Program-made: the position numbers and the translations under genes | Part shown: in pieces, positions 1 to 41,390 of the stretch | Numbering within the stretch: position 1 is the first letter of the stretch | Layout: every line of letters starts with the position of its first letter | Notes under the pieces: generated by a model | Told to the model about the DNA's origin: nothing | Databases searched by the model: none | Seen by the model: only the letters and a program-made list of their open reading frames with translations | Origin: a virus | IMG/VR virus record: IMGVR_UViG_3300033141_004276 | Location: 1 to 42,253 of that record | Direction: 5' to 3' (one strand) | Length of the DNA stretch: 42,253 bases

Positions 1-70
1 TTTTATGGTCATTAAAATAAATCATCTTTTTATATTTCCTATCCCACGCCCGAAACTTAATATCTCTCAT
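1..70 (-). CDS. YopX-family protein, N-terminal fragment cut by window edge
   Basis: Reading leftward from an ATG at 70, the first 23 residues are MRDIKFRAWDRKYKKMIYF then NDHK. This matches the conserved start of phage YopX-family proteins (M-R-E-I-K-F-R-A-W-D). The Shine-Dalgarno AAGGAGGT lies just upstream, and the start overlaps the end of the preceding gene. The family is common in phage early regions and its function is unknown. The rest of the gene lies beyond the left edge. A YopX C-terminal half occurs fused to another protein at 39565-40107. Confidence 0.7.
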   Translation of the reverse strand, partial: MRDIKFRAWDRKYKKMIYFNDHK

Positions 71-7318: not shown

Positions 7319-7359
7319 TTTTACTGGGTTTGAATTAAGTGCGTAGTTGTTTGACCTTG

Positions 7360-7789: not shown

Positions 7790-7843
7790 GTATATATATA
7801 ATATATATAATATACACAAAACAAAAATTTTTTAAAAAAGTTC

Positions 7844-7872: not shown

Positions 7873-7894
7873 TTTTGGTATAGGAGTAAATAAA

Positions 7895-8065: not shown

Positions 8066-8090
8066 CAAAGTTTTTGAAAAGATTTATAAT
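8062..8090 (+). promoter_or_regulatory. rightward consensus promoter P3
   Basis: TTGACA (8062-8067), 17 bases, TATAAT (8085-8090), a perfect consensus lying 21 bases before the 8112 start. Confidence 0.8.
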
Positions 8091-13968: not shown

Positions 13969-13993
13969 CAAATATTTTTTTTTAATATATAAT
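13965..13993 (+). promoter_or_regulatory. rightward consensus promoter P5 before scaffold and capsid genes
   Basis: TTGACA (13965-13970), 17 bases, TATAAT (13988-13993): a perfect consensus. It would boost the scaffold, decoration and capsid genes, which end at the terminator 16815-16852. Confidence 0.85.
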
Positions 13994-18681: not shown

Positions 18682-21648
18682 ATGTTATGGTTAATTTTAT
18701 TTTTAATTATAAATATATATGCCGAACAAAAACCGCAAATAAAATCTTTATCTGATTTTTCTGGTGGGCTTAATACAAAATTTGCTTCTGCTATAATACC
18801 TGAAAATCAAACACCTGATTGTCAAAATGTTCTATTTGATGAAATAGGAGGAGTAACAAGAAGAAAAGGATATAAATATAAAGGGTATCCTTCTACAACA
18901 ACTATTGGAAATAAATTATGGTATTATAAAAAATCAACAGGAGAAGAATTTTATATAACTCAAATACAAGATAAATTATATTATTCTCCTGATATGGAAG
19001 ATGGAACTTGGAGTTTAATTACTTCAGGATTAAAATGGGAATTAAATTCATTACAGGCAACAGTAGTAAATGACAAGATATTTTTTACCAATGGAATAGA
19101 TACAGTATTTTCTTTTGACGGAACAAATATTTCTGAATATGATTTTATTCCAAAAGGGAAATATATAGCAAGTATATCTGACGCTTCTTCTGGAATAATT
19201 TATGATAGAGTTTTTATTGCTAATACTTATGATTATCCTTCTGGAGTATATTGGACTGATACTGCTTATTTACCAAGCCAAGAAAATGCGTGGAATGAAA
19301 CACAATTGTTTTTTGTAGGGCAGAATAATGGTGATATAATTACTGGACTATATGTATGGAAAGGCGATTTATATATATTTAAAAGAAATTCTATATGGAG
19401 ATTATCAGGGGCTTCACCTGAAGCAGGGTATTTAATTAAACTTACTTCTGAATATGGCTGTATAAGTCAGGATACAATAGATGAATATAAAAATGGATTG
19501 ATATTTTTATCAGATAAAGGAGTAATATTTTTTGATGGGAGTTTTTTTAGAGAAATATCTTTGCCGATAGAACCTGATATAGATAATACTAAAAATATTT
19601 CAGGACAGGTTAATTACTGGATAAATACTACAAACTCCGATTTTTCAGCAGGGACTTCTACAAGTGCTATTACTATTTCTGGAAATGAAATAAAATTAAA
19701 GGATAAATCAAAAAAATATGAAAATTTTACTTTAAGTATGGGAACTTATACGAATGTAATTATAAATAATGCTAAAAATTTATCTTTAGATTTTACTTTT
19801 AATCCGTCTGGTTTATATAATTTAGAATTTAATCCTTTATCAATTTTAGCAGAATATAGTGCTGATTTTGATGTATATAAATATAATTTATTAAATTTAG
19901 ACGATGATGATTATAATTCTTTTGGATATTTTACAATATCCAGTATTCCAACTTTTTATTTTAAAAGAAAAAGAGAATATCACGGTGGTTATGTTCATAA
20001 AGATTATCATGGAACAACTCCAACATCTTCAAATATTTTAATAAAGAATATAAAATTTGATAAATCTATTATTAGTTATTTAAGAATAAAAGGTGGAATT
20101 GATACTTGGAAAGAAAATTATACTCAAGACGGAAACGATTTATGGGTAAAATCTGGTGGATTAAAATATAAAATTTCTGTTTTATATAAGACAGAATGGC
20201 TTGATGATCCTTATGATGAAATATATAGTGAAGAAGGAATATTTAGTTTTTCTGCAAAGCACGGTTGGGGTTCAGGTAATAAAATTACAGATAATCAAGA
20301 TTTTGATATAATTTTAAGCACAAATGTATCAACTTTTGACCCTCCTCCAACTGATGAATTTCAAATCAAAATAGATTTCTGGTGGGATGTTAATTGGGGA
20401 ACTGGTTATGAATGGACTGATGGAGAAAAAGAAGTAAAATTACAATTGATGATAGAAAGAATTAGAATAAATGAAATAGAAATAAAAGAAGATGTTTCTG
20501 CTGGATTTACTACATATTCCAGCACAGGAACATTTCAAACCAATACTTATGATTTTGGCGAACAAGTTGCTTTCAGCACTTTTACTGTTACTGATTTTGC
20601 TGTAACAGGAACTACTATTTATTATAAAATCAAGAGTTCTACTGATAATATAAACTGGTCAAGTTGGTATGATATATCAGATAATCAGAAAATATCCTGT
20701 CCTGATGGAAGGTATGTTCAAGTTATTTCAAGTTTTTCTACTTCTATTAGCAGTTATACTCCAAGATTACAGGATTTTACAATTGGGGCAATAAAATCAA
20801 CTGGAACTTGGATAAGTGCTAAATTTAATGCTAATAAAGTTGGGGCTTGGAAATATTTTATTACTGAAGATGTCAAGAATAATCAGACAATAAATTATTT
20901 TGTAAGGTTTGCGACTTCTTCAACTGCTTTGGATAATGCGTCTTGGAATAGTGTAAGTTCAGGCGATTTATTGACTTCTATTGGTGGAACTAATAAATGG
21001 ATGCAAGCAAAAGTTGGATTTTCTACTACCGATGGAATACAAAACCCTGCTTGTAGAAGTATAACTTTAACTTGGTATCCTGAAACAGATTTTGTTAACC
21101 CTGTTGGAAGAGTTAACAACAGAAGATATTGGCTTGCTGTTTCTACTGCTTATAATTACAATCATTTAGTTTATATTTTAGATAAAAATATGGCTTGGAC
21201 TAAATTTGATGGATATTATATAAACGATATGTTGGAAGTCGGAACTAATATATATATTCTTGACGCATTAAAAGGAGCAATATGGCAAGCAGAACAAGGT
21301 AATGTTGACAGGTATGAAAATCCTTCTTCTTCGCAAACTATAAATGCTTATTGGCAAAGCAAAGATTTATTTTTTGCTATTGATAGAGAAAGTGAATTAG
21401 AATATATTTATCCTACATTTAAAAAGACAGGTGGTAATATTATATTAGGATATTCTACTGATTATGATACAACTTTTACAACTAAATCTGTAAGTTTATC
21501 AGGAACAGGAATACAAAATGATAGAATACCAATACAATGGGGAGAAATATCAAAAATATGGAAATTTGAAATAAAACAGAATAATAATGAAGACCCGTTT
21601 GAGTTATATAATATAAATATATATTATAAACCAAAGAGTTTAAGATAG
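18682..21648 (+). CDS. large tail-tube/stopper protein with signal peptide
   Basis: 988 residues. The leader MLWLILFLIINIYA is followed by 'SLSDFSGGLNTKFASAIIPE' and 'CQNVLFDEIGGVTRRKGYKY', typical of podovirus tail tubular/stopper-type proteins. Residues about 60-310 look like a beta-propeller with repeated W/Y-rich strands; the rest is beta-rich with lectin-like parts. A cleavage site, IYA|EQ, again sits at the junction to the conserved phage start. It probably forms the tail hub. No clear Shine-Dalgarno, so coupling to 17942-18673 is likely. Confidence 0.75.
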   Translation: MLWLILFLIINIYAEQKPQIKSLSDFSGGLNTKFASAIIPENQTPDCQNVLFDEIGGVTRRKGYKYKGYPSTTTIGNKLWYYKKSTGEEFYITQIQDKLYYSPDMEDGTWSLITSGLKWELNSLQATVVNDKIFFTNGIDTVFSFDGTNISEYDFIPKGKYIASISDASSGIIYDRVFIANTYDYPSGVYWTDTAYLPSQENAWNETQLFFVGQNNGDIITGLYVWKGDLYIFKRNSIWRLSGASPEAGYLIKLTSEYGCISQDTIDEYKNGLIFLSDKGVIFFDGSFFREISLPIEPDIDNTKNISGQVNYWINTTNSDFSAGTSTSAITISGNEIKLKDKSKKYENFTLSMGTYTNVIINNAKNLSLDFTFNPSGLYNLEFNPLSILAEYSADFDVYKYNLLNLDDDDYNSFGYFTISSIPTFYFKRKREYHGGYVHKDYHGTTPTSSNILIKNIKFDKSIISYLRIKGGIDTWKENYTQDGNDLWVKSGGLKYKISVLYKTEWLDDPYDEIYSEEGIFSFSAKHGWGSGNKITDNQDFDIILSTNVSTFDPPPTDEFQIKIDFWWDVNWGTGYEWTDGEKEVKLQLMIERIRINEIEIKEDVSAGFTTYSSTGTFQTNTYDFGEQVAFSTFTVTDFAVTGTTIYYKIKSSTDNINWSSWYDISDNQKISCPDGRYVQVISSFSTSISSYTPRLQDFTIGAIKSTGTWISAKFNANKVGAWKYFITEDVKNNQTINYFVRFATSSTALDNASWNSVSSGDLLTSIGGTNKWMQAKVGFSTTDGIQNPACRSITLTWYPETDFVNPVGRVNNRRYWLAVSTAYNYNHLVYILDKNMAWTKFDGYYINDMLEVGTNIYILDALKGAIWQAEQGNVDRYENPSSSQTINAYWQSKDLFFAIDRESELEYIYPTFKKTGGNIILGYSTDYDTTFTTKSVSLSGTGIQNDRIPIQWGEISKIWKFEIKQNNNEDPFELYNINIYYKPKSLR

Positions 21649-21657
21649 GAGATTAAA

Positions 21658-24600
21658 ATGAAAAAGGTTACAGTTACTTTAATAATATCTTTTTTTTTGA
21701 CTATTATATGTTTTTTATTATATTCAAGAGTTCCATATAGAATACCTGAAAAAGTTAAAATAAAAGAATTACCATTTCTTTTAAACACAAATTTTGATTA
21801 TTTATGGTATTATATAAATAAGAAATCTACTGGAACAACAACTAAAACTAAAAAAATGTGGGCGAGATATGTAAAAACAGAACAGGGATATGAACTTGAA
21901 GATGATGATGTTCAGGGACAATTATTTGAATTAGCCGATGAAAAATTATCCCGCTATCAATCACATCCTTTAAGATACAGAACTATGAAAGGGCATTTAT
22001 ATATAGAAAGCCCATATAATTTAAGTATTGGAGATAGTTTAATAGAAAGTTATACAGGTGAAGGTTATCCATTAACAATTAAAAGAAATAGTCCACAGAT
22101 AAGAATACAAGAACCTTCTGGAAATCAAGAGTATTATATTGAAGTAGATACAGATATTCTTACATTGAAAGGAAATAATAATAAAATAAATATAGATGAA
22201 GGGAGTAGTCAAATAAAACTTGAAACTTCTCAAACTACTTATGAATTTGAAAATCACAATCTTGATATTACAAACGATGGAGGACAAACAATAAATATAT
22301 GGGATAGTAATAATACTACAGAACCATTATTTAAAATAACTACTCCTGCTTGGTATCCGACAGAAGGCAATGGAAATCCTAAAGCCACAGTATTTGAAGG
22401 GAAGGAAAGTAGAATACAATTTAAAAATTATCTTGCTATTACAAATAATCTTCCTGACCCAAGTGGAGAAAATGATGAATATATAGTTTATATTGGAGGG
22501 GATGGTTTTTCTGCTTATTTGGGATATATAAATGCTGATGATAAATTTTATGTGTATACTGATGGAAGTTCTAAAATAAGCGGAAGTTTAGGACTTGGTA
22601 AAAAACCAAGTTCAAAGTTTGATTTTGTTAAATCTACTATAAAAGAACCTTATAATGCTTATGGTATAGCAAATTATCTTGTAACATTTTCTACCTGGTC
22701 AGGAGAAGGTGCGAGTTCTAAAAACTGGTATAGTGGAGATAATAGAAATTTATATTTACTTGTTAATCCATATTATAATATAGGAATTGGTGGAGAAGGT
22801 AGTAAATATTTTGATAGAAGATGGTATGGAAATAAACAACCAGCAGCAAGAATACATATTTTTACCGATAAAGCGCATACTCAATATAACTGGCAAAATG
22901 CTTTTAGAATTGAAGGAAGTAGCAATAGTATTATGTTGGGTTGGGGAACAAATGGACATAGTTATTTAAGAGGGATTGAAGGGGCGCATTCTAATATTTA
23001 CATTCAGGATAAAGCAAGTTTAGGAAGTGTGGCAATAGGAACTAATACCATTCAGGGAAAAGTTAATATTATTGGCGATACCTATATAAATGGAGTTCTA
23101 ATATCAACTTATGGAGTTATTTCAGGAACTGCTACATTCTCTCAAAATTCTGATAAACTTGATGATTATGATAGTTCTGATTTTCTATTTCTAAATCAGA
23201 GTTCTACTCAAACTATAATAAGCGGAATACCATTATTAAATAATACTCCTTTTGGAAATGCTGACTTAAAAAGTTTTGTCAATAAAGAATATGTAGATTT
23301 AGCAGTAACTTCTGCAGTAACTTCTCTTGGGGCAAGTTATTATATGTATGATGAAGATGACGCTACTGGATACAAGACCTGTTATTTGAATCCGTCAACA
23401 GGAACAGAAACATATATTGAAAAGGCAAGTTTGACGGATAATGATTACATAGGCGGTTGGATTTCTGCGGGAGATGAAGCCCCACAAAAACTTCTCAAAG
23501 GAGTTTACAATTGGTATCTCACAGCGGAGAAAACCACAGGGACGCAGGATTTAAGAATTTACTGGGTATTAGTAGAAAGAAAATCAGACACAACAGAAGT
23601 AGTCATATCAACAAGTTCAAATAGTAATTTAATTACAGATAAGGAAGCATATCTCATACCGTTGCAGTTAGATGAGGATTATATCCCCGATACAGGGAGC
23701 AGAATAGTAGGAAAACTTTATGCCGATGTTTCTGGAAATGGAAATGCTCCGACTATCAGAGTATATTATCAAGGCAATACTTCAAGCAGGTGGGAAATAC
23801 CAGCAAATAGCGAGATATTTCAAAATATATTTGTTCCTTATGAAAATGCGAAAAAAGACATTGACTTGAATGAAAGACAAATCACAAATGTAAGCACGAT
23901 AACATTCGCAGATGGGACATTTATGACCTCAACGTCCACTTTTGGCGGTGCTGGAGAAGAGACCGACCCTATATTTACAAGTTCCGCACCTATAACTTAC
24001 CTTTTTAAAAATGAAAAGGCAAACGATAGCGACAAATTGAATGGCAGGAATTATGACGCATTTGTTGATACTTATACATTTCAAGAAATAGGCGGGGAGA
24101 AAGTGTTTAATGCAATAACTATGAATGGAGAATTACAAGGTGATGGGAATCTTTTAGAGGATTTTTCTATATCAGCATTAAAATTAGTGGATGTTTTAGA
24201 TGCAAATGGGTTTAAAATCATAAATCATAGCACTTCTCCAACTTCAAATAGCGATGTTTCCACAAAAGGATATACCGATTATGCGATAAGACAAGCAACA
24301 GTTTCTCTTATTTCTACTGACGGTTTATCCGCAAACTGGGACGCTGGGGATTATCAGATACACATCTCCACAATCAGAGCCGATGGTTCAAAAGGTCTGT
24401 ATCTCCTTGACGACGGCGGAAACGGGATATATGTAGAAGATGGGGGAGAGGTTGGAATTGGGACGACAAATCCAAATGAATTATTAGTTGTAGGAGATGA
24501 TATAGGTTATGTTACTGGAAACAACGCTATAGTAATTGGGCAAAGTGGAAATACAAGGCCAGTTTTAATTATAGGAAACGATAGTAATAATTATGGAATA

Positions 24601-24930
24601 ATAGGCTTTAATAAAGCGCTTGATAATACAAATCCTCCTTTAGTATTTACAACTAAGGAAAGTGGAAATTTTTATGAGAATACTTTGGTTATAAAAACTG
24701 GCAACGTCGGCATTGGAGACACATCTCCTTCTTACAAATTAGATGTTACGGGCGACATTCACTGCACGGGAAAACTTACTTCTGACGGCGGTAATGACCC
24801 ACCGTATGTGCTTTATAACTATGAGACCAGACAGAGTATAATAGAGCGAGTAAAGAAAGAAGTAACTCCTGATAAATTAAACGGGGCAGTAATGTTTTAT
24901 AATGGTGAGGCAAATAGAATGACAGGGTAA
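21658..24930 (+). CDS. tail fibre/spike protein with N-terminal signal anchor
   Basis: 1090 residues in the uninterrupted frame. N-terminal MKKVTVTLIISFFLTIICFL is a signal or membrane anchor. Downstream are fibre-type repeats: 'GSLGLGKKPSSKFDF', 'SVAIGTNTIQGKVNIIGD', 'GEVGIGTTNP', 'GNVGIGDTSPSYKLDVTGDI'. The frame ends GEANRMTG at a TAA, but the next frame continues with a plausible C-terminus (24923-25183). Probably the receptor-binding fibre. The 3' third uses less AT-rich codons than the first, which suggests module exchange. Confidence 0.8.
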   Translation: MKKVTVTLIISFFLTIICFLLYSRVPYRIPEKVKIKELPFLLNTNFDYLWYYINKKSTGTTTKTKKMWARYVKTEQGYELEDDDVQGQLFELADEKLSRYQSHPLRYRTMKGHLYIESPYNLSIGDSLIESYTGEGYPLTIKRNSPQIRIQEPSGNQEYYIEVDTDILTLKGNNNKINIDEGSSQIKLETSQTTYEFENHNLDITNDGGQTINIWDSNNTTEPLFKITTPAWYPTEGNGNPKATVFEGKESRIQFKNYLAITNNLPDPSGENDEYIVYIGGDGFSAYLGYINADDKFYVYTDGSSKISGSLGLGKKPSSKFDFVKSTIKEPYNAYGIANYLVTFSTWSGEGASSKNWYSGDNRNLYLLVNPYYNIGIGGEGSKYFDRRWYGNKQPAARIHIFTDKAHTQYNWQNAFRIEGSSNSIMLGWGTNGHSYLRGIEGAHSNIYIQDKASLGSVAIGTNTIQGKVNIIGDTYINGVLISTYGVISGTATFSQNSDKLDDYDSSDFLFLNQSSTQTIISGIPLLNNTPFGNADLKSFVNKEYVDLAVTSAVTSLGASYYMYDEDDATGYKTCYLNPSTGTETYIEKASLTDNDYIGGWISAGDEAPQKLLKGVYNWYLTAEKTTGTQDLRIYWVLVERKSDTTEVVISTSSNSNLITDKEAYLIPLQLDEDYIPDTGSRIVGKLYADVSGNGNAPTIRVYYQGNTSSRWEIPANSEIFQNIFVPYENAKKDIDLNERQITNVSTITFADGTFMTSTSTFGGAGEETDPIFTSSAPITYLFKNEKANDSDKLNGRNYDAFVDTYTFQEIGGEKVFNAITMNGELQGDGNLLEDFSISALKLVDVLDANGFKIINHSTSPTSNSDVSTKGYTDYAIRQATVSLISTDGLSANWDAGDYQIHISTIRADGSKGLYLLDDGGNGIYVEDGGEVGIGTTNPNELLVVGDDIGYVTGNNAIVIGQSGNTRPVLIIGNDSNNYGIIGFNKALDNTNPPLVFTTKESGNFYENTLVIKTGNVGIGDTSPSYKLDVTGDIHCTGKLTSDGGNDPPYVLYNYETRQSIIERVKKEVTPDKLNGAVMFYNGEANRMTG

Positions 24931-25183: not shown

Positions 25184-25793
25184 AGTTTATAGAAAATTAA
25201 GAAAAGCAGATATTATGGTAATACAGAATAAGAAATTTGATTTAATCAGTTCAGGCATTCGCTGGTTTCAGAATGGTAAATCTTCTCATACTTGTTTAAT
25301 ATCTGATGTTAAAGGGCAAAAGCAAATAGAATATACTATTGGCGGATGTCAGGAAAGAGATATAAAAATCTATATGAATTATCCTCATAAGGTCTGGATA
25401 ATGAGAAAAATAGATTTAAGTTATAGAGAAAGAAATGAAATAGTTAAACAAGCAAAATTAGATATTGGAAAAAGATATGATTATTTGAGTTATATTATAT
25501 ATATACTTGTTATGGGGCTTAAAAAAATCGGTATAAATCTGGAAAGAAAATTTAATAACTTTATTCAGGCAAGGGATAAAGAAGTATGTAGTTCTGGAGT
25601 GGATAAATGGTATAGAAAAGCAGGACAGGATTTATTTCCCAATATAGGCGATAATATGGTAGTCCCTGATGATTTTCTGAAACATAAAAAATTAATAAAT
25701 ATATTTATACTTGATTTTGAGGAAGATTATTTTAGGATTTATGATAAAATAGAAAGTAGGATTATAACTAAAATTTATGAAAAAAATACTTGA
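25176..25793 (+). CDS. permuted NlpC/P60-like (YiiX-type) peptidase
   Basis: 205 residues. 'KADIMVIQN' and 'NGKSSHTCLI' carry the early His (H38), 'IEYTIGG' supplies an acidic residue, and 'GKRYDYLSY' precedes 'KEVCSSGVDKWYRKAG' with the likely catalytic Cys (C138). The His-before-Cys order is that of circularly permuted papain-like enzymes (YiiX/LRAT group). In a phage tail module it may cut peptidoglycan peptides or another amide at entry. AGAGG precedes the start. Confidence 0.7.
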   Translation: MNRVYRKLRKADIMVIQNKKFDLISSGIRWFQNGKSSHTCLISDVKGQKQIEYTIGGCQERDIKIYMNYPHKVWIMRKIDLSYRERNEIVKQAKLDIGKRYDYLSYIIYILVMGLKKIGINLERKFNNFIQARDKEVCSSGVDKWYRKAGQDLFPNIGDNMVVPDDFLKHKKLINIFILDFEEDYFRIYDKIESRIITKIYEKNT

Positions 25794-25818
25794 CAAAGTT
25801 ATAAAAAAATAGTATAAT
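25790..25818 (+). promoter_or_regulatory. rightward consensus promoter P6 before lysis genes
   Basis: TTGACA (25790-25795), 17 bases, TATAAT (25813-25818), a perfect consensus overlapping the 3' end of the peptidase gene. It gives the lysis and internal-protein genes their own start. Confidence 0.85.
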
Positions 25819-26919: not shown

Positions 26920-27561
26920 ATGGCTCTTACTAATGAGTATTTGGAATTATATGATATTTTAACCAGAGGTATTGAAAAAGAAGGGAAAGAAGCAACAGAA
27001 CAATTATTAAGAAGTGCAGAAGCAAAAGGATTTGGAGTTCCCACTTTAAAAGAATTATCAGCAGGAGTAGGTGAAAAAGTAGCACAAAAAACTGCTGAAT
27101 TAGGGGCAAAATTAGGATTAGCACAAAGAGAAGAAAAAGTAAGGTTAGGAGAAGCAGAAAAATCAAGGAGATTTGCTAAATCACAGCAACTATTGTCTCA
27201 GGCATTTCAAGAAAAAATGGCACAGAAACAATTTGAAAGACAGAAACAACTTCTTGACTGGCAGTATGAAAAACAGAAACAGGAATTAAGAGAAGCACAA
27301 AAACGAGCAAGAAAAGCAGGTTGGTTACAATTTGGACTTTCAACTTTGACAGGTGCGGCAGCAACAACATTCCTTCCTTCTCTTTTTGGATTAACAAAAG
27401 AAATTACTATAAAAAAAGGAGAAAAAGAGGAAAAAAAGATAGTCCCAATAAATTTAATAAGTAGATTACTTACAGGTGGAATTTTAGGTTCTTCAGGACT
27501 TGCTTATTTATTAGGGCAACGATTAGCACCAAAAACTACACTTGAAGATTTATTTGGATAA
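26920..27561 (+). CDS. internal virion (ejection) protein candidate
   Basis: 213 residues. A long coiled coil (residues about 60-140, EKMAQKQFERQKQLLDWQYE) precedes hydrophobic stretches 'GLSTLTGAAATTFLPSLFGL' and 'LLTGGILGSSGLAYLLG'. This layout resembles T7 gp14-type internal proteins that insert into the envelope during DNA entry. GGGAGGT precedes the start. Confidence 0.65.
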   Translation: MALTNEYLELYDILTRGIEKEGKEATEQLLRSAEAKGFGVPTLKELSAGVGEKVAQKTAELGAKLGLAQREEKVRLGEAEKSRRFAKSQQLLSQAFQEKMAQKQFERQKQLLDWQYEKQKQELREAQKRARKAGWLQFGLSTLTGAAATTFLPSLFGLTKEITIKKGEKEEKKIVPINLISRLLTGGILGSSGLAYLLGQRLAPKTTLEDLFG

Positions 27562-27571
27562 GGAGAAAAAA

Positions 27572-28483
27572 ATGGCTTTACAAGTTCCAAAAGAATTATT
27601 TTTAACTGAAAGTGATGTATTATTAAATCTGCTTCAACAGATGAAACAATCCGCATTACAGGGATTTTCAGCAGAGGAACAAAAACAATTAGAAGGATTA
27701 AAAAATTTACTTGCTCTAAAAAGAACTATATTTACAGCAAAATTTTCTAAAGCAGAACCTTATGAAATTGTAAATGGAAAAGAAGTTCCTTTAGAACTGA
27801 ATAAATTATTAGGATTAGCACTTGGAGTAACTCCAGAGAAAATTGGAAAAATAGTGTGGAAACCGAGAAGAACAGAAGCAGAAAAAGTAACTCCATTAGG
27901 AATAGAAACACCATTAGCAAAACTTCGGGCTTTAGGTGAAATTGGTAAAGCAGAGATTAAACCATTTGACCCTATTACAAAAGGATTTGGAGAAGCGGAA
28001 CTATATAGAATAGGTAAAGAGATAAAAACTGAAGATGATTTAAAAGATTTTGTCTTCAATAAGTTAGGTATAACTCTTGATACTTTAAGAACAAGGCAAG
28101 GGAAAAAGTATTATAATAAAGCATTACAAAAATTGAATAGTATAATGAAAAGAAAAAAAGTAAAAAAAGAGGTAACAAAACCAAAACCAAAACAAAAGAA
28201 AAGTATTTTTACCAGAATAAAGAAATTTTTTACCGAAGAAAGCCCAACGGAATTAGAGAAATTAGAAAAAAAGGCAGAGAAAGCAAAAGAAATAGTTCCG
28301 AAAACAAGAGAACAAAAGTTAAAATCATTATCTAAGAAAACAGGGGGAAAAATATATATTTATCAGGTAGCAGATTATGAATTTTCTATTCCTGAGGAAG
28401 ATGTAAAAAAATTTTTATCAGATATGAAAAAACAAAATATAAAACCAAAATTAATAAAAGTTAAATTTGAAAAAGTTGAATGA
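27572..28483 (+). CDS. internal virion protein candidate
   Basis: 303 residues from the ATG at 27572 (AAGGAG upstream). A helical N-terminal half rich in Leu and Gln precedes a basic linker (VKKEVTKPKPKQKKSIFTRI) and a C-terminal alpha/beta segment (GGKIYIYQVADYEFSIPEED). It lies between two other internal-protein candidates and overlaps the giant gene (ATGA). No family recognised. Confidence 0.6.
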   Translation: MALQVPKELFLTESDVLLNLLQQMKQSALQGFSAEEQKQLEGLKNLLALKRTIFTAKFSKAEPYEIVNGKEVPLELNKLLGLALGVTPEKIGKIVWKPRRTEAEKVTPLGIETPLAKLRALGEIGKAEIKPFDPITKGFGEAELYRIGKEIKTEDDLKDFVFNKLGITLDTLRTRQGKKYYNKALQKLNSIMKRKKVKKEVTKPKPKQKKSIFTRIKKFFTEESPTELEKLEKKAEKAKEIVPKTREQKLKSLSKKTGGKIYIYQVADYEFSIPEEDVKKFLSDMKKQNIKPKLIKVKFEKVE

Positions 28484-31400
28484 ATTTAAAATCGGATATT
28501 ATCAAAAAATGGGATGGGAAAAAAATTGCTATTTCAGATGATATTATAAAAAAATGGAGTGGGAAAAGAATTACTGAAAAATTAAAACCTGTTTCTCAAA
28601 AACCTTTTGAAACTCCGCTGGCTGAAGAATTTAAAAAACCTGAAAAACCGATTAAAATTCAATTAGAATGGACAAAACCTGAAAAAGAAACTATTATAAG
28701 AGCAGTTAGGAAAGAAGAAAAATTTAGAGATTTAACAGAAAAGGAAAAAGAAACAGCAGATTTATTAAGAGAAATAAAATATTTAAAAAACAATGCTCCA
28801 TTTGAAGTTAAAGCAAAAGCATTTACTACTCAAGTTATAAGAAATAGTCCTGTAGGAATTATAGGAAGAATTATATCTGGCAAAAAATTTGATGAATATA
28901 TTGAAAGAGATAAGGCAATAGAATATGCTTTTCCATATTATGCTATGGCAGGTCAATACGCTGGAGAATGGGCTTCTTTAATAACTACTGGTAAAATATT
29001 AGGAAAAATTCCTATAAAATTGACGGGAAAAATGTTACCAACAGTATTTGAAAAAGTTTCTACTCCAATATTAGCGGCTATAACTGGTTCTGCTTCTGGT
29101 GGTGCTATTTTTGGCATTTCTCAATTAGCAGAAGAAATTGCTAAAGCAAGAGAAGAAAAAAAAATTGATGTATTAAAATCAGCAAAAAGAGTAGCAGAAA
29201 GTTCTTTAATGGGGGCAGGATTAGGTTCTTTATGGGCTATTGAAAATCCTATAAAATCTATTGTAGCAAGTTCTGTTTATGGAGCAGGAATAAATTATCT
29301 TTTTAATAAGGACTATAAACAATCTGCTATATCAGGACTTATGTTTGGTCTTTTAACTGCTGCTACTCATAAGAATATGTCAAAATTATTAAGAGATATA
29401 GCATATCAAAGAACTATAGATGGAGTAAAAACTTATATTAAATTGAAAAAGCCTAAAGCACCAGATTGGGAAGTAGAAGTTCTTTCAAGGGAATTTTTAA
29501 ATGATATGTTAATTAAGAATAATCTTGCTAAGGTAGAAGGAAAAGAACTAATATTTAAAGATAATTTGACATATAAACATTTTGAAAGTGCTACAAAAAA
29601 TGTAATTAAAAATATAGATAAATTATTATTTAATATATCCAAACAAGCAAAAGTAAGCACAGTAAAACCTATTCCAAAACAGAATATTAAAGACATAGTA
29701 GAAAAAGCAGGTGGCAAATTTCTTGGAGTAAAAGACAATTTAGTTTATTTCAACGAACCAAAAACAAAATCTACTCTTGCTTTGCCTGTGAATGAAGCAA
29801 ATTTAGAAAATATTAAGAATAGAATAATTGAAACTCAAAAGAAAGTTGAACCTCAAAAAAAAGTTGAAAAACCTAAAATGACATTTGAAGAAATACAGCA
29901 AAAAGAAAAACTTATGGGACAACTTAAATCAGAACCTCTTAATTATCCTCAAAGTGCTATTGAAAGAATGAGTTTAAAAACAGCAAAAGAAATTATAGAA
30001 AAATCTATACCTTATAAGAAAGTCAGTATATTGCCAGATGGAAGTTATAAAATTATAGAGAAACAACCTGAAGAAAAAGAAATATCTAAACCAAGTGTTT
30101 CCAAAAAGGAACAGGTTGAAATGAAAGAACCGTGGGAAATGACAAAAGAGGAGTATAAAAATTTGCCGATAGAACAATGGGGGGAAATTACAGGTTTTGT
30201 GGAATATAGTAAGTTATCGCCAAAGATAAAAAAAGTAGCACAAGAAAAATATCTTAAAGAAACTGGAGATATAGAAGGAGCAAATCCTAAAAGCGAAGAA
30301 TTTATATTGGATAAATTTATTTTTGATAAGAAAACAGGAGAAATTTTTAGCGATGATTATCCATCACATAAAGAAGAGGTAGAATGGGCTCTTAAACAAG
30401 GCAAACCAGTCCCTGCCGAAATCCTTAAAGATTATCCTGATTTGGTAGAAAAATATAAAGCGAAACAGGTTGTTTCGCAAATTGAAAGTGTTAATAAAAT
30501 AAAGGATATTCGTGAATATATTAAAGCAAATTATAAAGGAATTTCTGAAAATGATATAAATATAATAGAAAAAGATATTGGGACTTTAACAAACAAATAT
30601 TCAAAGTATTTAAAATCACCGCAGACTGACAAAGATGAGTTATTATCTGCGTCTTTTATAGGATTAGATAAAGCATTAAAGACCTTTGATAAAAGCAAGG
30701 GGGCTTCTTTAAGGACGCATATAAACAATTATATTAAAGGAGAAATAAGGGACTGGTTATCTGAAAATGAGAATTTAATAAAAGTTAATAGAACTTATGA
30801 GAGCAAAATAAAGAAGGCAATAAAGCAATTACAGAATGAAGGGATAGAACCAACAATAGAGAAAATATCAGAATTAAGCGGGATTAAAAAAGATACTGTA
30901 AGAGATATAATTGAAGTAAGAAATATAATTTCTGAAATGGTTGATGAAGAAGAAGGAGTAAGAAAAATAGAACAGATAAAAGAAGAAAAACCTACTCCAG
31001 AAGAAGCAGTTGCTAAAGAGGAATTAGTTACCAGATTAAAAGAAGAAATTTCAAAATTATCTAATAAAGAAAAGGAAATATTTGAGGCTTTTAGTGAAGA
31101 TAAATCTGTATCATATATATCTAAAAAAGTAGGTATTTCTGAAGAAGAAGCAGTTAATACTTTGAAAAATGTCAGAAAAAAACTAATAAAAAATTTAGAA
31201 TTAGAAGATTTGATATATATGGATTATGCTATTGGAAGTAAGGAAATTAAAAAGAAAGAAGAAAGAGGAAGCATAAGATTTAAAAAGATAATTGAGTTAG
31301 ACCAAGCGAAAATAAAATCAAAAAAGTCACTAAAGGAAAAAGAAAATATATTTAAAAAGTATATAGAAGAACTTTTTTCATTTTATCCAGAATTAAAAAA

Positions 31401-34110
31401 TTATCCTGTATTACAAAATGATATAAGAAAGTATATGGGAAGGATACATCATCTTCAGGAAATTGTATTTGATTTAATGCGAGTTGCTATATTTGGAGAT
31501 ATGAGTGAAGAAGAAATATATTTAACTTCTCAACTTATTTTTGATTTAAGTGATGAGGCAAGAATTAAAGCAAAAGTTGAAACTTCGGGGCTTACTTTAG
31601 AAGAAGTTAGAGAAAATATTAAAAAAAGAAAAAATGAATTTAAAAAGTTGGGAATAGATAAGAAAGTAGATAGAGCCATAGAGAAATATAAAGAATATAT
31701 TGAAATAATAAGAGAAACCTTAATAGAAATAGGAGTTTTAAAACCAGAACAGAATTTTGATTTTTATGCTCCACATAATGTATTAAATTATATTAATCCT
31801 GATTTTTGGCAACATTGGGAATATATAGGAATTTCAAGAAGATTTAGAAAATTTAAACCTTCTTTTGCTAAAAAAGCCAAAGGGACAACTAAAGAATATT
31901 TAAGGTCACCAATAGCATTATTTACATATTTTGCTAAAGCACTTAAAACAATAGAAGATTGGAAATTTCTAAACGATATTTTAGATAGATATGATATTAC
32001 TAAAAATTGGGAAGTGGAAGATTATGTGAAGTTTATAAATGATAATATTCCAGATAAAGCAATAGAAAAATTCTTAAAAGATAAGAATAAAAAAAGTTTA
32101 GAAGATATAAATATAAAATCATTAAGAGGATTTGCTTTTGATTATAAAGAAGATATTGTAATTAACGACAAACAATATCGGACATTTTATCCAACTTCTG
32201 TTTTCTTATCAACAGGCAGAAGTAGACCTCCTGATTATAAAAATAAACCTTTTTATGTTGTTCCTAAAGAAATAGCAGATACTTTAAACAATTTTTATCC
32301 GCCTTCTTTGGGGGGTATAAGATTACTTAATAAAGCAACAGCAATATGGAAAACTGCTGCTATTTTTTGGAATTATCCTTCTTTTACTTTAAATAACATA
32401 ATAGGTGATACTTTTATTGTTTTGGTTCAACATCCTGAACCGTGGGAATTATCTCACGATATATCAGTAGCAATAAGATACCTTTTTAGTCAAGAAGCCA
32501 GAAATACCGATTTAAAAGAGTTAAGAGATTTTATTATAGATGAAGCGGTTTTAGATGGATTAATGATTACTTCTGAAAATTTATATAGTGCTACTTCTCC
32601 TATTGAAGTTTTTAAAAAACTTAATAAACTTTCAATGTATAGAGAAAGTTTATTAAGAATTGCTATGGCTAATTATTGTTTAAGGAAATTAAAAGAAGGC
32701 AAAGCAAGTTTCGTAAGAGAACATTTAGGTCATCTTGATATTCCAGAATTAAATGATAGAGATGCTATGGGACATATAGCAAGAAGTATATTAGTAGATT
32801 ATCAAAGATGGTCTCCTATATTTAAAAGATATGTAAGAGGACTTGCTGTTCCTTTTGGGACTTTTTATTTTGGTTGGACTAATATTTGGTGGAAATTTCA
32901 ATTTAGCAAAAAAGATTGGTGGAAAGCATTGGCAGGCGGATTTTTACCATATATTATAGCAACATTATGGAACTATTCAAGTAAAGAAAGAAGAAAAATT
33001 GAGGCAAAATTACCAAGAGATAAAGCATATGATTTACATTTCATATTAAGCACAAAACCTGAACCTGATGGAACTTATCGTATCTGGGACCCGCAAAATC
33101 CAGTTGCTCTTGTTTTTGGTGGGTCTATTTATGGTGCTTCTACAAAAGCAGTAGCAAGAGTAACATTTGAAGGTATTTCCATAAAAAAAGCAAGCAATGA
33201 GTTTTTAAAACAGATATTTGGAGAAGAAAAAAGAAGGATTGTTTTTCTTGCCACTCCTGCCTGGAGATTTATTAAAGGATTAGTAGATAGAAGAGACCCT
33301 TATGATAGAGCACCTATATATCCAAGAAGAAAAGAAGATTTAACTACTATTGAGGAAATATATTATAATTTTTTGTATTTTGCTAAAACATTTAGTCCGC
33401 CTTTTGCTAATTCTATAAGATATTATGTAAGAGGTATGCCCTTAAGAGCAACTACTAAAAAATTGTTTAGTCATTGGAGTATTAAAAGAGTATTAGGAAT
33501 TTATAACATAAATTTAGCAACAGGATTTTTAACTTCTATTTTTACTGAAGAAGAATTAGAAAGATTATCAAAGAAAGAAAAAGATATTTTTGAAAAATTA
33601 AGTTGGGATACTGTAAGAGAAATCAACAATTTGACAAAAAAAGCAGCGTCTATTTTTGATAGTGTATTAAGAGATTTTAAAAATAAAAGTTTTGATTTAG
33701 TTAAAGAAGAAGTTGAAAAAACATATGATGGCAAATACCCAACAAAAAGGAATGAAATATTAAATTTGTATTATACTGTTTTTAAAAAATATTGGAAAGA
33801 AATAGGGCAGGAAAAATATTCAAATAAAGTTAAGAAAGTTCTTGAAAAAGCAGAATTACCAATTCCTATTGAAAAAATATCTGATAAATTATGGTTAAAC
33901 AGATTTATCAATAGAATAGTTAATCCTTCTTTTATTTATAATCTTGCTTATGGCAATTATGAAATTGCTGACAAAAATACTCCTGAAAAGTTTTATTATG
34001 GAAATTTGAAAAAAATTTCAAGAATTTCAAGATTTATTCAAGTTATTACCAGAACTCCATCAGCAGAAAGAGCATTAACTCTTAAGAAACTATTATCTGG
34101 TAAAGAATAA
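28480..34110 (+). CDS. giant internal virion protein with embedded sigma-70 domain
   Basis: 1876 residues, the largest gene here and last of the rightward block. A short motif, DIIKKW(D/S)GK(K/R)I, is repeated at residues 6-16 and 21-31. Residues about 150-300 are hydrophobic and Gly/Ala-rich. Residues 694-905 look like sigma regions 2-3-4. After that come about 970 helical, Trp/Tyr-rich residues (SFTLNNIIGDTFIVLVQHPE). Size, place and layout fit proteins ejected with podovirus DNA (T7 gp16, N4 vRNAP position). I see no lysozyme or protease motif. Confidence 0.75.
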   Translation: MNLKSDIIKKWDGKKIAISDDIIKKWSGKRITEKLKPVSQKPFETPLAEEFKKPEKPIKIQLEWTKPEKETIIRAVRKEEKFRDLTEKEKETADLLREIKYLKNNAPFEVKAKAFTTQVIRNSPVGIIGRIISGKKFDEYIERDKAIEYAFPYYAMAGQYAGEWASLITTGKILGKIPIKLTGKMLPTVFEKVSTPILAAITGSASGGAIFGISQLAEEIAKAREEKKIDVLKSAKRVAESSLMGAGLGSLWAIENPIKSIVASSVYGAGINYLFNKDYKQSAISGLMFGLLTAATHKNMSKLLRDIAYQRTIDGVKTYIKLKKPKAPDWEVEVLSREFLNDMLIKNNLAKVEGKELIFKDNLTYKHFESATKNVIKNIDKLLFNISKQAKVSTVKPIPKQNIKDIVEKAGGKFLGVKDNLVYFNEPKTKSTLALPVNEANLENIKNRIIETQKKVEPQKKVEKPKMTFEEIQQKEKLMGQLKSEPLNYPQSAIERMSLKTAKEIIEKSIPYKKVSILPDGSYKIIEKQPEEKEISKPSVSKKEQVEMKEPWEMTKEEYKNLPIEQWGEITGFVEYSKLSPKIKKVAQEKYLKETGDIEGANPKSEEFILDKFIFDKKTGEIFSDDYPSHKEEVEWALKQGKPVPAEILKDYPDLVEKYKAKQVVSQIESVNKIKDIREYIKANYKGISENDINIIEKDIGTLTNKYSKYLKSPQTDKDELLSASFIGLDKALKTFDKSKGASLRTHINNYIKGEIRDWLSENENLIKVNRTYESKIKKAIKQLQNEGIEPTIEKISELSGIKKDTVRDIIEVRNIISEMVDEEEGVRKIEQIKEEKPTPEEAVAKEELVTRLKEEISKLSNKEKEIFEAFSEDKSVSYISKKVGISEEEAVNTLKNVRKKLIKNLELEDLIYMDYAIGSKEIKKKEERGSIRFKKIIELDQAKIKSKKSLKEKENIFKKYIEELFSFYPELKNYPVLQNDIRKYMGRIHHLQEIVFDLMRVAIFGDMSEEEIYLTSQLIFDLSDEARIKAKVETSGLTLEEVRENIKKRKNEFKKLGIDKKVDRAIEKYKEYIEIIRETLIEIGVLKPEQNFDFYAPHNVLNYINPDFWQHWEYIGISRRFRKFKPSFAKKAKGTTKEYLRSPIALFTYFAKALKTIEDWKFLNDILDRYDITKNWEVEDYVKFINDNIPDKAIEKFLKDKNKKSLEDINIKSLRGFAFDYKEDIVINDKQYRTFYPTSVFLSTGRSRPPDYKNKPFYVVPKEIADTLNNFYPPSLGGIRLLNKATAIWKTAAIFWNYPSFTLNNIIGDTFIVLVQHPEPWELSHDISVAIRYLFSQEARNTDLKELRDFIIDEAVLDGLMITSENLYSATSPIEVFKKLNKLSMYRESLLRIAMANYCLRKLKEGKASFVREHLGHLDIPELNDRDAMGHIARSILVDYQRWSPIFKRYVRGLAVPFGTFYFGWTNIWWKFQFSKKDWWKALAGGFLPYIIATLWNYSSKERRKIEAKLPRDKAYDLHFILSTKPEPDGTYRIWDPQNPVALVFGGSIYGASTKAVARVTFEGISIKKASNEFLKQIFGEEKRRIVFLATPAWRFIKGLVDRRDPYDRAPIYPRRKEDLTTIEEIYYNFLYFAKTFSPPFANSIRYYVRGMPLRATTKKLFSHWSIKRVLGIYNINLATGFLTSIFTEEELERLSKKEKDIFEKLSWDTVREINNLTKKAASIFDSVLRDFKNKSFDLVKEEVEKTYDGKYPTKRNEILNLYYTVFKKYWKEIGQEKYSNKVKKVLEKAELPIPIEKISDKLWLNRFINRIVNPSFIYNLAYGNYEIADKNTPEKFYYGNLKKISRISRFIQVITRTPSAERALTLKKLLSGKE
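30559..31194 (+). other. sigma-70-like domain inside the giant protein (residues about 694-905)
   Basis: Region 2: 'DELLSASFIGLDKALKTFD' then 'KSKGASLRTHINNYIKGEIR', matching the DLIQEGxIGLxKAxxxFDxxkGxxFxTYAxxxIRxxI pattern. Region 3: 'IKKAIKQLQNEGIEPTIEKI' followed by 'SELSGIKKDTVRDI'. Region 4: 'EEAVAKEELVTRLKEEISKL' and 'SNKEKEIFEAFSEDKSVSYI' then 'SKKVGISEEEAVNTLKNVRK', the helix-turn-helix for the -35 box. All parts are in the usual order and spacing. Region 1.1 is absent, as in alternative sigmas. Confidence 0.85.
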
Positions 34111-35006: not shown

Positions 35007-35347
35007 TTCCTAATCCTCCTTCTCTTTCTATTTTTTAAATATTCTTTTATTTCTTTTGAAGATACTGTTTTTATAATGTCAAGATTAATATAATCATAAA
35101 CTTTTATTTTTACAACACAACCTTTAGGAATTACTATAATATCATCTGTATCAGTATCATCAATTTTATTTGTAATATTAATATTTCTTAAAATCAATAA
35201 ATAATCAATATTGTTAATCTTTTGTATTTTATAAATAATACCAAAAGTATAATTTATAGGAATTTTTATATCACTATATCTTGATTTATTATTAAAAGCC
35301 ATTATATCAGTCCATTCTATTCTGGCAATTTTAAATTTTCTTTTCAT
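35003..35347 (-). CDS. hypothetical protein between rusA and phosphoesterase
   Basis: 114 residues (MKRKFKIARIEWTDIMAFNN). Mostly beta strands (VIPKGCVVKIKVYDYINLDI) and a very basic C-terminus (KNRKRRRIRK). Overlaps both neighbours by 4 bases, so strictly coupled. Possibly nucleic-acid binding from charge alone. Confidence 0.65.
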   Translation of the reverse strand: MKRKFKIARIEWTDIMAFNNKSRYSDIKIPINYTFGIIYKIQKINNIDYLLILRNINITNKIDDTDTDDIIVIPKGCVVKIKVYDYINLDIIKTVSSKEIKEYLKNRKRRRIRK

Positions 35348-35877
35348 AATTCCCAGACTATAAGTTCTACTCTCGGATTTTCTTTATCTATATTCCTATA
35401 AAGATGTTCTTCACAAAATTGTTTATCATCTTTATACATCAATCCATTAAAAGCGTCAAATATTGATTTTGTATAATTATGAGTATCTCTTACTCTATTA
35501 TCTTTAAAATATAATTTTAAAATAACCGCTAATTTCCCAGTCAACATTTTAAAATCTTTTGGTTTTTGAGCAAGGAACTGATATTGTAAATCTTTTTCAT
35601 ATTGTTTATATTTCCTGCTTAAAAAATATTTCCCTTGTTTATTTCTAATCTTTTCATTATCTTTGCTTAAAGGATTTCCTTTGAATATAAATTTATATTT
35701 TTTGCTATAATCAAAATAACTTGTTATGTTTGAAAAATCTAAACTTTCATCTGTAAAAGAATAAATAATATTACAAGGTCTTTTACATCGTGAACAAATA
35801 TAATAATGAGTAGTTCCATTTCCAGAAATTTCTACATTAGCCCTACAACAATCAGAAACATAAAAAGGATTTATCAT
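35344..35877 (-). CDS. rusA: RusA-family Holliday junction resolvase with N-terminal zinc ribbon
   Basis: 177 residues. Residues 1-40 form a Cys-rich ribbon (DCCRANV, then ICSRCKRPC). The RusA part starts 'YKFIFKGNPLSKDNEKIRNK' and carries the active-site block 'RVRDTHNYTKSIFDAFNG' (D131, K137, D141) with 'MYKDDKQF' (D150/D151). RusA dimers cut four-way junctions. No Shine-Dalgarno is visible; a perfect promoter places the transcript start at the ATG. The extra ribbon is not part of minimal RusA and may aid DNA binding. Confidence 0.85.
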   Translation of the reverse strand: MINPFYVSDCCRANVEISGNGTTHYYICSRCKRPCNIIYSFTDESLDFSNITSYFDYSKKYKFIFKGNPLSKDNEKIRNKQGKYFLSRKYKQYEKDLQYQFLAQKPKDFKMLTGKLAVILKLYFKDNRVRDTHNYTKSIFDAFNGLMYKDDKQFCEEHLYRNIDKENPRVELIVWEL

Positions 35878-35883: not shown

Positions 35884-35912
35884 ATTATAACATTTTTAAA
35901 ATGAAATGTCAA
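35884..35912 (-). promoter_or_regulatory. leftward consensus promoter for rusA
   Basis: On the minus strand TTGACA (35912-35907), 17 bases, TATAAT (35889-35884). Six bases (TTAACT) separate the -10 box from the rusA ATG, so the A of the ATG is the expected first transcribed base. Confidence 0.85.
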
Positions 35913-36562: not shown

Positions 36563-37486
36563 TTACACCTCCTTATTTACTAATTTTTCTTTATACCATT
36601 CTGGAAATCCGTGTGTGCTTTTTCTAACTATATCATTAACAAATATTTTATATAAACCATTCTTTATATTTTCTTTTTCTTCTTCTAATAAATCATTTTT
36701 AATTTCTTGAATAAGTTTACCTATATCTCTTACAGAACATTCTAATTCTCCTTTTTCTTTTAAATGCTGTATAGCCTTATTCCATCTTGCTTCTGTTCTA
36801 AAACTTTCTATAAATAACTCCAATTTACCTTTAGAAGTAAAATCCCTTTTCCATTCAGTTTTATGTTTTTCTTTAAATTTTTCTGATACATATTTGCCCA
36901 TAGATATTGGAATAATTATTGAATTTTTTATCATAGCAACTTGGTTATAATTTTTTATAACTATACCTTCTATTTTACATCCACCAAGATAACTTTCAGT
37001 TTCTAAAAATTTATTAATTTCTTCCATTGTTCCTTTTAATTCTCCATAGTATAATAAAGGAACAATATCTATATCAAGTAATAATGCTATTTCTTTAAGA
37101 TGTTCATAATTATCAATAAATTTATCTTTAATATAAGCCCCAAATAAAGCAAAATTGTTTTTTGGAATATTATTATACTTCAATACATTATGTTTAGGAG
37201 ATTTTAAGTATTCCATATATAAATATACTGGCTGTGGAAATTTTTCCCTCAAGATATTTTCTCTTGCTAAAGTTTGTGTATATGCTTCATAAAACATATT
37301 ATCAATTGCTGTATTTGTCCATTCTTTACCCTTACTTCTGTATCTAAAATTACTATTTTCATCTATACCTATAACCCATTGTGAACCGTCAATTTTTTCT
37401 GTAATTTCAACTTTTCCTTTAAATAAGTTTGGGATATAAGTATCTCCAATGTGAAAAATTTTTGGAAAAGAAGAAAATCCTTTCAT
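36563..37486 (-). CDS. RNA ligase (Rnl2-like)
   Basis: 307 residues from the ATG at 37486 (AGGAGGTG upstream). Nucleotidyltransferase motifs: I 'ITEKIDGSQW' (Lys31 would carry AMP), III/IIIa 'YLYMEYL' and 'FALFGAYI', IV 'KIEGIVIKNY' (about 172-181), V 'ISMGKYVSEKFKE'. A helical C-terminal domain follows. Such phage ligases can reseal tRNAs cut by host defence nucleases. No polynucleotide kinase/phosphatase is seen, unless the metallophosphoesterase helps prepare ends. Confidence 0.85.
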   Translation of the reverse strand: MKGFSSFPKIFHIGDTYIPNLFKGKVEITEKIDGSQWVIGIDENSNFRYRSKGKEWTNTAIDNMFYEAYTQTLARENILREKFPQPVYLYMEYLKSPKHNVLKYNNIPKNNFALFGAYIKDKFIDNYEHLKEIALLLDIDIVPLLYYGELKGTMEEINKFLETESYLGGCKIEGIVIKNYNQVAMIKNSIIIPISMGKYVSEKFKEKHKTEWKRDFTSKGKLELFIESFRTEARWNKAIQHLKEKGELECSVRDIGKLIQEIKNDLLEEEKENIKNGLYKIFVNDIVRKSTHGFPEWYKEKLVNKEV

Positions 37487-37497
37487 AGTTTCACCTC

Positions 37498-37695
37498 CTA
37501 AAATAGCCATCCTTTCATTCTATTCACCAGATTTCTCACATTTCCTATTTTTTGTTTTCTTTCTTCTGAAAAAGAAGCAAGTTTTCCACTCTGTTCCAGC
37601 CATTCAAAATAATCATCACAACAAGTTAAAATCATAATTAATTCTTTTTCTGTAAACTCAATTGTAATTTTTTTACTCATTTCAATTTTCTTCAT
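37498..37695 (-). CDS. small hypothetical protein
   Basis: 65 residues ([20 protein letters not shown]). Two helices with CC in the first; AAGGAGGATTT precedes the ATG. The pattern 'ITIEFTEKELIMIL' is frequent at the start of small phage proteins of unknown role. Confidence 0.6.
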   Translation of the reverse strand: MKKIEMSKKITIEFTEKELIMILTCCDDYFEWLEQSGKLASFSEERKQKIGNVRNLVNRMKGWLF

Positions 37696-40340: not shown

Positions 40341-41390
40341 TTACCACTCCTCCTCCACTCCTCCTTTATTTTTTCCTTTTTTTCTTCTCTTTACTCTTAT
40401 TCCAGTAACCTTAAAAAATATTCTACTATTAAATTCTGGCAATGAACTTATATATTCTACCGCTTCTTTTGGCATATCTTTCCACGCTTCTTCTTTAGAT
40501 ACTTCTTCCGCTTTTGTTATAGGAGTTTTTTTCCATTCACCACCATATTTTAGATATAAGTATTTTAAATTATTAAACTGTGGTCTCCAATTTCCTAACC
40601 GAGCAAAAAGATTTTCTTTTACTTTATTAAATCTTTTTTTGGAAACTTTTTTCCCGAATATAAAATATTCCTTTTTCTTATCTGCCATAAAAAGGTGGTT
40701 AGCCACACCATAAGAATTATATATTCCAAAAGACCCCGCTACACCTTTTGACCCCGCTACACCTTCTGACTCCGCTATACCTTTTGACCACGCTACACCT
40801 TCTGACTCCGCTACACCTTTTGACCTCGCTACACCTTTTGACCCCGCTACACCTTCTGACTCCGCTACACCTTTTGACCTCGCTACACCTTTTGACCCCG
40901 CTACACCTTCTGACCACGCTACACCTTTTGACCCCGCTACACCTTTTGACCACGCTACACCTTCTGACCTCGCTACACCTTCTGACCTCGCTACACCTTC
41001 TGACCCCGCTACACCTTTTGACCCCGCTACACCTTCTGACTCCGCTACACCTTTTGACCACGCTACACCTTCTGACTCCGCTACACCTTTTGACCACGCT
41101 ATATAATTTTGTATTCCTTCAAATGGTATTTCTCTTATTATTTTTATTTTGTTAGTTACTTTTTTACTATCTTCACTATGCCCAATAACTTTACCAAGTG
41201 CCTCTACCTCGGCAATTTTATTCCACGGGACGCAGTCATAATAATTGAAACAATCTTCTAATTTTTCACAGAAATGAAAACCTTTTTTACAAATTTCAAT
41301 ATCTTCTTCTGGCATTTCATAAGTTTTACCGATTTCATATTGAAATCCCTGACACTTCCAATCAGCGTCAAAAACTTTAAATCCTTTCAT
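40341..41390 (-). CDS. DUF7666-like protein with hexapeptide repeat array
   Basis: 349 residues. Residues 1-95 match a phage domain I know as DUF7666-like: 'GFQYEIGKTYEM', 'CKKGFHFCEKLEDCFNYYD', 'IAEVEALGKVIGHSEDSKKV'. Residues about 99-230 are some 20 units of (W/E/G/R)S(K/E)GVA plus two degenerate ones, likely a beta-solenoid. The tail has 'NHLFMADKKKEYFIFGKKVS', which continues the family pattern. AGGAGGTGG precedes the start. Function unknown. Confidence 0.75.
   Translation of the reverse strand: MKGFKVFDADWKCQGFQYEIGKTYEMPEEDIEICKKGFHFCEKLEDCFNYYDCVPWNKIAEVEALGKVIGHSEDSKKVTNKIKIIREIPFEGIQNYIAWSKGVAESEGVAWSKGVAESEGVAGSKGVAGSEGVARSEGVARSEGVAWSKGVAGSKGVAWSEGVAGSKGVARSKGVAESEGVAGSKGVARSKGVAESEGVAWSKGIAESEGVAGSKGVAGSFGIYNSYGVANHLFMADKKKEYFIFGKKVSKKRFNKVKENLFARLGNWRPQFNNLKYLYLKYGGEWKKTPITKAEEVSKEEAWKDMPKEAVEYISSLPEFNSRIFFKVTGIRVKRRKKGKNKGGVEEEW
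40701..41096 (-). repeat. 18-bp tandem repeat array in coding sequence
   Basis: About 22 units of 18 bp. On the coding strand each unit reads (T/G/A)GG or GAG, TCA, (A/G)AA, GGT, GTA, GCG with little other change. Variation is almost confined to the first codon (W, E, G, R) and the third codon (K, E). Because units are 18 bp, gain or loss keeps the frame. Confidence 0.9.

Follow-up and report, generated by a model that had tools for sequence, protein, structure and literature searches.

A diverged sigma-70-type domain within a giant, probably ejected protein of a putative SU10-like podovirus

Phages need transcription to start directly upon entry, and the particles for which a solution is known carry in either a complete polymerase or an enzyme acting on that of the host. 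The locus described here raises the question of whether a particle may also carry in a sigma factor. The window, i.e. the whole stretch of DNA analysed, is the entire IMG/VR record IMGVR_UViG_3300033141_004276 (42,253 bp) and appears from its genes to belong to an uncultured SU10-like podovirus (short-tailed). Judged from the sequence, the architecture is real and unusual, and its most likely meaning is that an ejected protein of the polyvalent type bears a sigma module. The gene and the parts of its sigma domain are located as follows.

28480-34110, forward strand: gene of the giant protein (1876 aa), one open frame, last in the rightward virion module
30559-31194, forward strand: sigma-70-type domain, residues 694-905 (matches to NCBIfam and Pfam profiles and to PDB sequences and folds)
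30586-30765, forward strand: sigma region 2, residues 703-762 (PF04542, above cut-off)
30805-30924, forward strand: sigma region 3, residues 776-815 (PF04539, in the expected order but under its cut-off)
31036-31185, forward strand: sigma region 4, residues 853-902 (PF08281 and a GerE-type HTH, weak alone; inside the full-length SigBFG match)

Residues 694-905 almost certainly form one complete, diverged sigma-70-type domain, as judged by profile and structure searches. The NCBIfam profile TIGR02937 (sigma70-ECF) was matched with an E-value of 1.1e-17 (64.1 bits versus a cut-off of 42.9). TIGR02980 (SigBFG) was matched at 63.1 bits across profile positions 10-221 of 227 without a gap, a score that lies far under the subfamily cut-off (63 versus 234 bits) and indicates superfamily membership only; the FliA_WhiG profile (NCBIfam) gave 55.6 bits. 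The match is well above chance and confirms the first-pass annotation, which had placed regions 2, 3 and 4 in correct order within these residues. The comparison with the individual Pfam profiles that it had suggested was borne out for Sigma70_r2, which exceeded its cut-off (E-value 3.6e-6 in the whole giant and 5.9e-7 with the domain alone), whereas regions 3 and 4, although in order, stayed below their own cut-offs (1.4e-4 for region 3 of the domain searched alone; 0.0045 for region 4 by itself with r4_2, and a better 4.4e-4 with the GerE-type HTH). Searches of the PDB with phmmer returned SigF (1l0o; 1.8e-8) and Aquifex FliA (1rp3; 5.4e-8). The top 50 Foldseek matches of a single-sequence AF2 model of low confidence (pLDDT 62.5) were exclusively sigma or sigma-containing entries, none of them below an E-value of 0.001. 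The nearest kin of the domain thus appear to be SigF/FliA-type (group 3) factors of the SigB/F/G-FliA group, not RpoD. No other match to Sigma70_r2 was obtained in the record, and neither a stand-alone polymerase nor a second sigma factor was recognised among the phage proteins scanned.

The remainder of the giant yielded few recognisable parts, and two further stretches were delimited.

28780-29379, forward strand: Gly/Ala-rich, relatively hydrophobic stretch, residues 101-300 (G+A 19-25%, highest hydropathy of the N-terminal half)
31195-34107, forward strand: C-terminal 971 residues, without a recognisable family (no Pfam, PHROGs or phage-collection match)

The hydrophobic stretch is a possible membrane-active part. 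The giant matched no polymerase family in Pfam, PHROGs or NCBIfam and showed no sign of a T7-like single-chain RNA polymerase domain; a zincin metallopeptidase, a lysozyme or an LPD domain was likewise not detected. Polyvalent Pfam domains (LPD38 and others) were absent from its C-terminus up to an E-value of 10, a second candidate motif at residues about 540-605 gave matches only at E-values of at least 1, and an AF2 model of residues 1241-1640 reached a pLDDT of 35 and was hence not used. No protease domain was found in the giant, so the suggestion that the sigma domain might be freed by proteolysis gains no support as far as self-proteolysis is concerned.

Searches with the giant's own sequence returned no relatives, whether from phages, from IMG/VR, from GTDB contigs or from a set of 103 Thermotogota genomes. 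Three weak matches, two of them within ClpC-like and RecN-like proteins, were judged to be due to chance, as was the one match returned by a further DNA-pattern search of IMG/VR for the sigma block. The family phrog_351 (928 positions) was rejected as proof of other giant sigma proteins, the same columns being filled by ordinary phage sigma factors of 250-300 aa. The fusion, which the earlier annotation had proposed to look for in related phages, was not met with elsewhere in these searches and is known from one example. Its occurrence on a single contig would be in line with an assembly artefact or a recent chance fusion. The chance of this is very slight: the 1876-aa frame is uninterrupted and coupled to the upstream gene, the stop codon of which (ORF 27542-28483) is overlapped by the start of the giant gene by 4 nt, and the sigma domain is at most about 32% identical to every host gene compared and hence no fresh capture.

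The surroundings of the gene bear on whether its product could enter the cell. The relevant particle genes are the following.

9128-11524: terminase large subunit with a LAGLIDADG intein (LAGLIDADG_3, 5.9e-12; Terminase_3, 1.6e-11)
11853-13757, forward strand: SU10-type portal protein (PF23899, 2.1e-16)
17942-18673, forward strand: SU10-type tail adaptor protein (PF24175, 1.6e-20)
26920-27561, forward strand: candidate small ejection protein, 213 aa (gene order, hydrophobic segments)
27542-28483, forward strand: candidate medium ejection protein, 313 aa (gene order, overlap with the giant gene)

The virion module comprises the rightward genes from ~7.9 kb to 34.1 kb and also encodes a Mu gpT-like capsid protein and an M15 peptidase, which is likely the endolysin. 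The gene of the M15 peptidase is followed by those of the 213-aa and 313-aa proteins and then by the giant gene, which is convergent with the leftward genes starting at 34,152. This order agrees with the earlier description of the giant gene as last in the virion module after two internal-protein candidates, in what would be an SU10-like podovirus. For kuravirus-like phages, the products of the genes that close the virion module have been described as apparent ejection proteins (PMC9965538), and the giant gene occupies this SU10/kuravirus-like position in a module with SU10-type portal and adaptor proteins. A small/medium/giant ejection set is also formed by gp52, gp51 and gp50 of N4 (PMC12633501).

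The intein of the terminase (about residues 34-390) is inserted at the P-loop, a site at which a relative (L028) has none. A GroES-like co-chaperonin ORF (11571-11849; Cpn10, 2.9e-10) lies between terminase and portal, and a similar ORF also follows the terminase of L028. Five neck and tail proteins (16869-17378, 17594-17923, 17942-18673, 18682-21648 and 21658-24930), among them the SU10-type adaptor, a nozzle-like protein and a fibre, have strongly hydrophobic, Sec-signal-like N-termini, which also occur in two relatives (L011, 5447-10442; L028, 6801-8650) and are very unusual in tail proteins, since phage tails assemble in the cytoplasm. The leftward arm encodes an RNA ligase (36563-37510, reverse strand; PF09414, 7.9e-13) with RusA nearby (35344-35877), and a DUF7666 protein (40341-41390, reverse strand) carries a run of SKGVAESEGVA-type repeats.

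A second indication of the nature of the giant is a short motif ahead of the sigma domain.

30361-30456, forward strand: polyvalent-protein motif, residues 628-659 (HMM match 630-659), common to InPase, strawberry-notch and N6-MTase giants

The motif (PSHKEEVEWALKQGKPVPAEILKDYPDLVEKY) is of the type HKxxVxxALxxGKPVPAxVLxDYPxL and ends 34 residues before the sigma domain. It was also found in an 885-aa post-capsid protein with an InPase domain from Leptospira phage LE1, a 2020-aa strawberry-notch helicase from a Bordetella plasmid, N6-MTase giants of 2350-2531 aa from Pseudomonas and Stutzerimonas plasmids and a Thalassospira giant, and several motif-bearing proteins adjoin DotD/IcmW-type secretion genes. 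An HMM built from seven examples, with the giant left out, scored the giant at 36.4 bits (best of 2000 shuffles, 5.6), a value that is not independent, the examples having been gathered with the giant's motif as query; the polyvalent-type nature of the retrieved proteins, in contrast, is independent of it. The InPase and DarB-like helicase/methylase classes have been called polyvalent by Iyer et al. 2017 (PMC5512222), a term for large proteins that are encoded with virion or transfer genes and combine at least two recognised effector domains. The giant shares the size and the location, and its sole recognised effector is the sigma domain; it is therefore referred to as polyvalent-type and not as a member. 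An apparent co-occurrence of motif and sigma domain on plasmids was discarded, since the annotated matches over most of the query were ordinary sigma factors. Altogether, the giant is probably a polyvalent-type, ejected protein that would be carried in the virion.

Similarity searches give only a hint of Thermotogota as the host. The nearest terminase (64%) lies on an 8.7-kb phage contig that is binned in a Thermotogaceae MAG, with mis-binning being possible, and carries an SU10-like module close to that of L011; a relative of the nozzle protein was detected in one of 103 Thermotogota genomes, namely in the same MAG. When 61 Thermotogota genomes were searched with the sigma domain, proteins of FliA length accounted for most of the best matches (E-values down to 1e-15, 24-32% identity), and those of RpoD length were weaker. 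None of the matches listed lay within an open frame above 449 aa, and the fusion is therefore not a feature of those hosts. In a tree, the support values next to the domain (0.07 and 0.52) were too low for a donor to be named.

Whether the domain could still act as a sigma factor was assessed at positions whose roles in core and DNA contact are established for sigma-70, by comparison with 29 Thermotogota FliA and 16 RpoD sequences (E. coli sigma-70 numbering). It differs from both groups at most of the invariant contact positions. Those altered in region 2.2 include D403E, Q406S and E407A, and position 413, always hydrophobic in Thermotogota FliA and RpoD, is occupied by D (L413D). The core-binding residues, whose loss would speak against the first-pass proposal, are thus in part replaced, with the S-A pair at 406/407 also being present in a stand-alone SigF/G-like sigma factor (L003). 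In the recognition helix of region 4, an invariant R is changed to E and an invariant Q to N; an invariant E is changed to Y. Like FliA, the domain lacks in region 2.4 the WW pair as well as Q437 and T440, all of which RpoD has, and its position 437 is G, again as in FliA. Region 2 scored 31.8 bits against its profile, compared to about 66-94 bits for host sigma factors. On the other hand, phiEco32 gp36 and 7-11 gp47 work with the host core at a mutual identity of only 15% (PMC8948821), and together with the identical S-A pair in L003 these active though diverged factors make the divergence a warning and not a refutation. The many lost invariant positions and the low region 2 score would also suit a domain that is no longer a transcription factor, with its sigma-like helices serving as a DNA-binding or structural module of the ejection apparatus. 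This is unlikely, because all three regions are retained without a gap over the full SigBFG profile and phage sigma factors are active even at very low identity (PMC8948821).

The phage was also searched for promoters, and five full matches to the sigma-A consensus were located.

7844-7872, forward strand: consensus sigma-A promoter, 12/12 match
8062-8090, forward strand: consensus sigma-A promoter, 12/12 match
13965-13993, forward strand: consensus sigma-A promoter, 12/12 match
25790-25818, forward strand: consensus sigma-A promoter, 12/12 match
35884-35912, reverse strand: consensus sigma-A promoter in the leftward arm, 12/12 match

All five have the form TTGACA-17-TATAAT. Perfect TTGACA-16..18-TATAAT sites were expected 0.13 times, and a number of five was reached in 0 of 100 shuffles. 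Of the ten sites with 11-12 matches, eight preceded a gene by no more than 120 nt, with both arms represented, and a de novo motif search recovered mainly the sigma-A motif and ribosome binding sites. From these sites, the host housekeeping holoenzyme should be able to read the phage in both directions. The visible promoters, which probably include P2-P6 of the first-pass annotation, are of the host sigma-A type, and no new sigma factor is therefore needed to read them. FliA-, SigB-, SigF-, SigG- and sigma-32-type promoters showed no convincing excess over shuffles in the phage. The late promoters of 7-11 likewise escaped computational detection (PMC8948821), and the host-type promoters leave room for additional sites used by the sigma domain. 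The divergent AT-rich region of about 1 kb at 6930-7900 contains repeats of the GGTTTATAAA type in tandem at 6930-6985. Boxes of the sequence GTTGACAA form a pair at 6990-7008 and an inverted pair at 2392-2408; these elements are possible operators or a possible origin.

The claim that the host RNA polymerase is redirected to phage promoters at once is weakened by these data, because the visible promoters are host-type and invariant contact positions are changed; decoy or sequestering roles are for the same reasons as open as promoter recognition. It is conceivable, if somewhat unlikely, that the giant is an ejected decoy for the core polymerase, in which region 2 binds the host core without promoter recognition and host transcription is lowered or host sigma factors are outcompeted, while phage genes run from their strong consensus sigma-A promoters. 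The R to E and Q to N changes in the recognition helix, a region 2.4 unlike that of RpoD and the failure to find a second promoter class in the phage would fit such a role. A decoy must keep its core contacts, yet Q406, E407 and the hydrophobic residue at 413 are altered, and the full-length retention of regions 3 and 4 goes beyond its needs. It is quite improbable that the domain is a late-acting phage sigma factor that was fused by chance to a virion protein and works, perhaps after cleavage, in the producing cell in the manner of phiEco32 gp36 or 7-11 gp47. The sigma factors of phiEco32-like podoviruses do drive late genes (PMC8948821), but the giant gene is itself the last of the very late module that would need activation, the late genes carry perfect sigma-A promoters and a protease domain was not found in the giant.

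The best explanation of the locus as a whole, held tentatively and at somewhat less than even confidence, is an SU10-like giant ejection protein with a SigF/FliA-type effector module that biases initiation to the phage. The giant would be made late, packed in the head together with the two smaller ejection proteins and passed into the host at infection. Once its sigma module is exposed to the cytoplasm, it would bind core RNA polymerase of the host where the DNA comes in, biasing initiation to the phage genome either by specific recognition or by mere tethering of the polymerase. This chain of events is favoured by the full-length sigma match, the SU10 portal and adaptor, the kuravirus-like position of the gene, the small-medium-giant set, the polyvalent motif and the lack of a stand-alone polymerase or second sigma factor among the proteins scanned; the altered contact positions, the host-type promoters in both arms and the single example stand against it. 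That the particle delivers a sigma factor within a giant ejected protein, and that host core is thereby seized on the incoming DNA ahead of all phage gene expression, is by itself a reading we consider possible but slightly doubtful.

No ejected or virion-fused sigma factor was found in the freely accessible literature searched, which agrees with the first-pass statement that no such system was known and is not proof of absence. Ejected or polyvalent proteins for transcription takeover are already known, and the novelty would lie in the sigma module that one of them appears to carry. The closest parallel is gp50 of N4 (Schitoviridae), which together with gp51 and gp52 forms a small/medium/giant set that likewise ends, in a podovirus, with a giant multidomain protein bearing a transcription module (PMC12633501). 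It differs in being a whole single-chain polymerase that starts without the host core, whereas the giant has a sigma domain only; moreover, ejection is proven for N4 and suggested by the genes for the giant, and sequence similarity between the two was not detected. Polyvalent proteins (PMC5512222) resemble the giant as large virion-block proteins with an effector among low-complexity linkers and a shared motif, but the word 'sigma' is absent from the text of the survey of 131 domains. The sigma-like proteins phiEco32 gp36 and 7-11 gp47 also belong to SU10/phiEco32-type podoviruses and use the host core (PMC8948821), but stand alone, are synthesised in the already infected cell for middle or late transcription and are not part of a virion protein. 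Sigma genes among virion genes are present in large phages, namely Salmonella phage Arash (gp10; L046, 11892-12596), Vibrio phage D69 and a 169.7-kb IMG/VR contig (L044, 7746-8507), the last sharing a similar L.TH[IV].NYIK block with the giant. In contrast to the giant, these factors are about 235-254 aa long and unfused, and the record of Arash gives gp10 no structural label, although many of its neighbours have one; these stand-alone factors may represent a related strategy. T4 Alt, as cited in PMC5512222, is a head protein injected with the DNA that alters the host RNA polymerase, but it is an ADP-ribosyltransferase and not a sigma factor. If true, a virion-borne sigma factor would be a cheaper route via the host core and a new effector type for ejected or polyvalent proteins, with the motif offering a search handle for further ejected proteins, and sigma delivery would constitute a third takeover route beside the ejected polymerase of N4 and the polymerase-modifying enzyme of T4.
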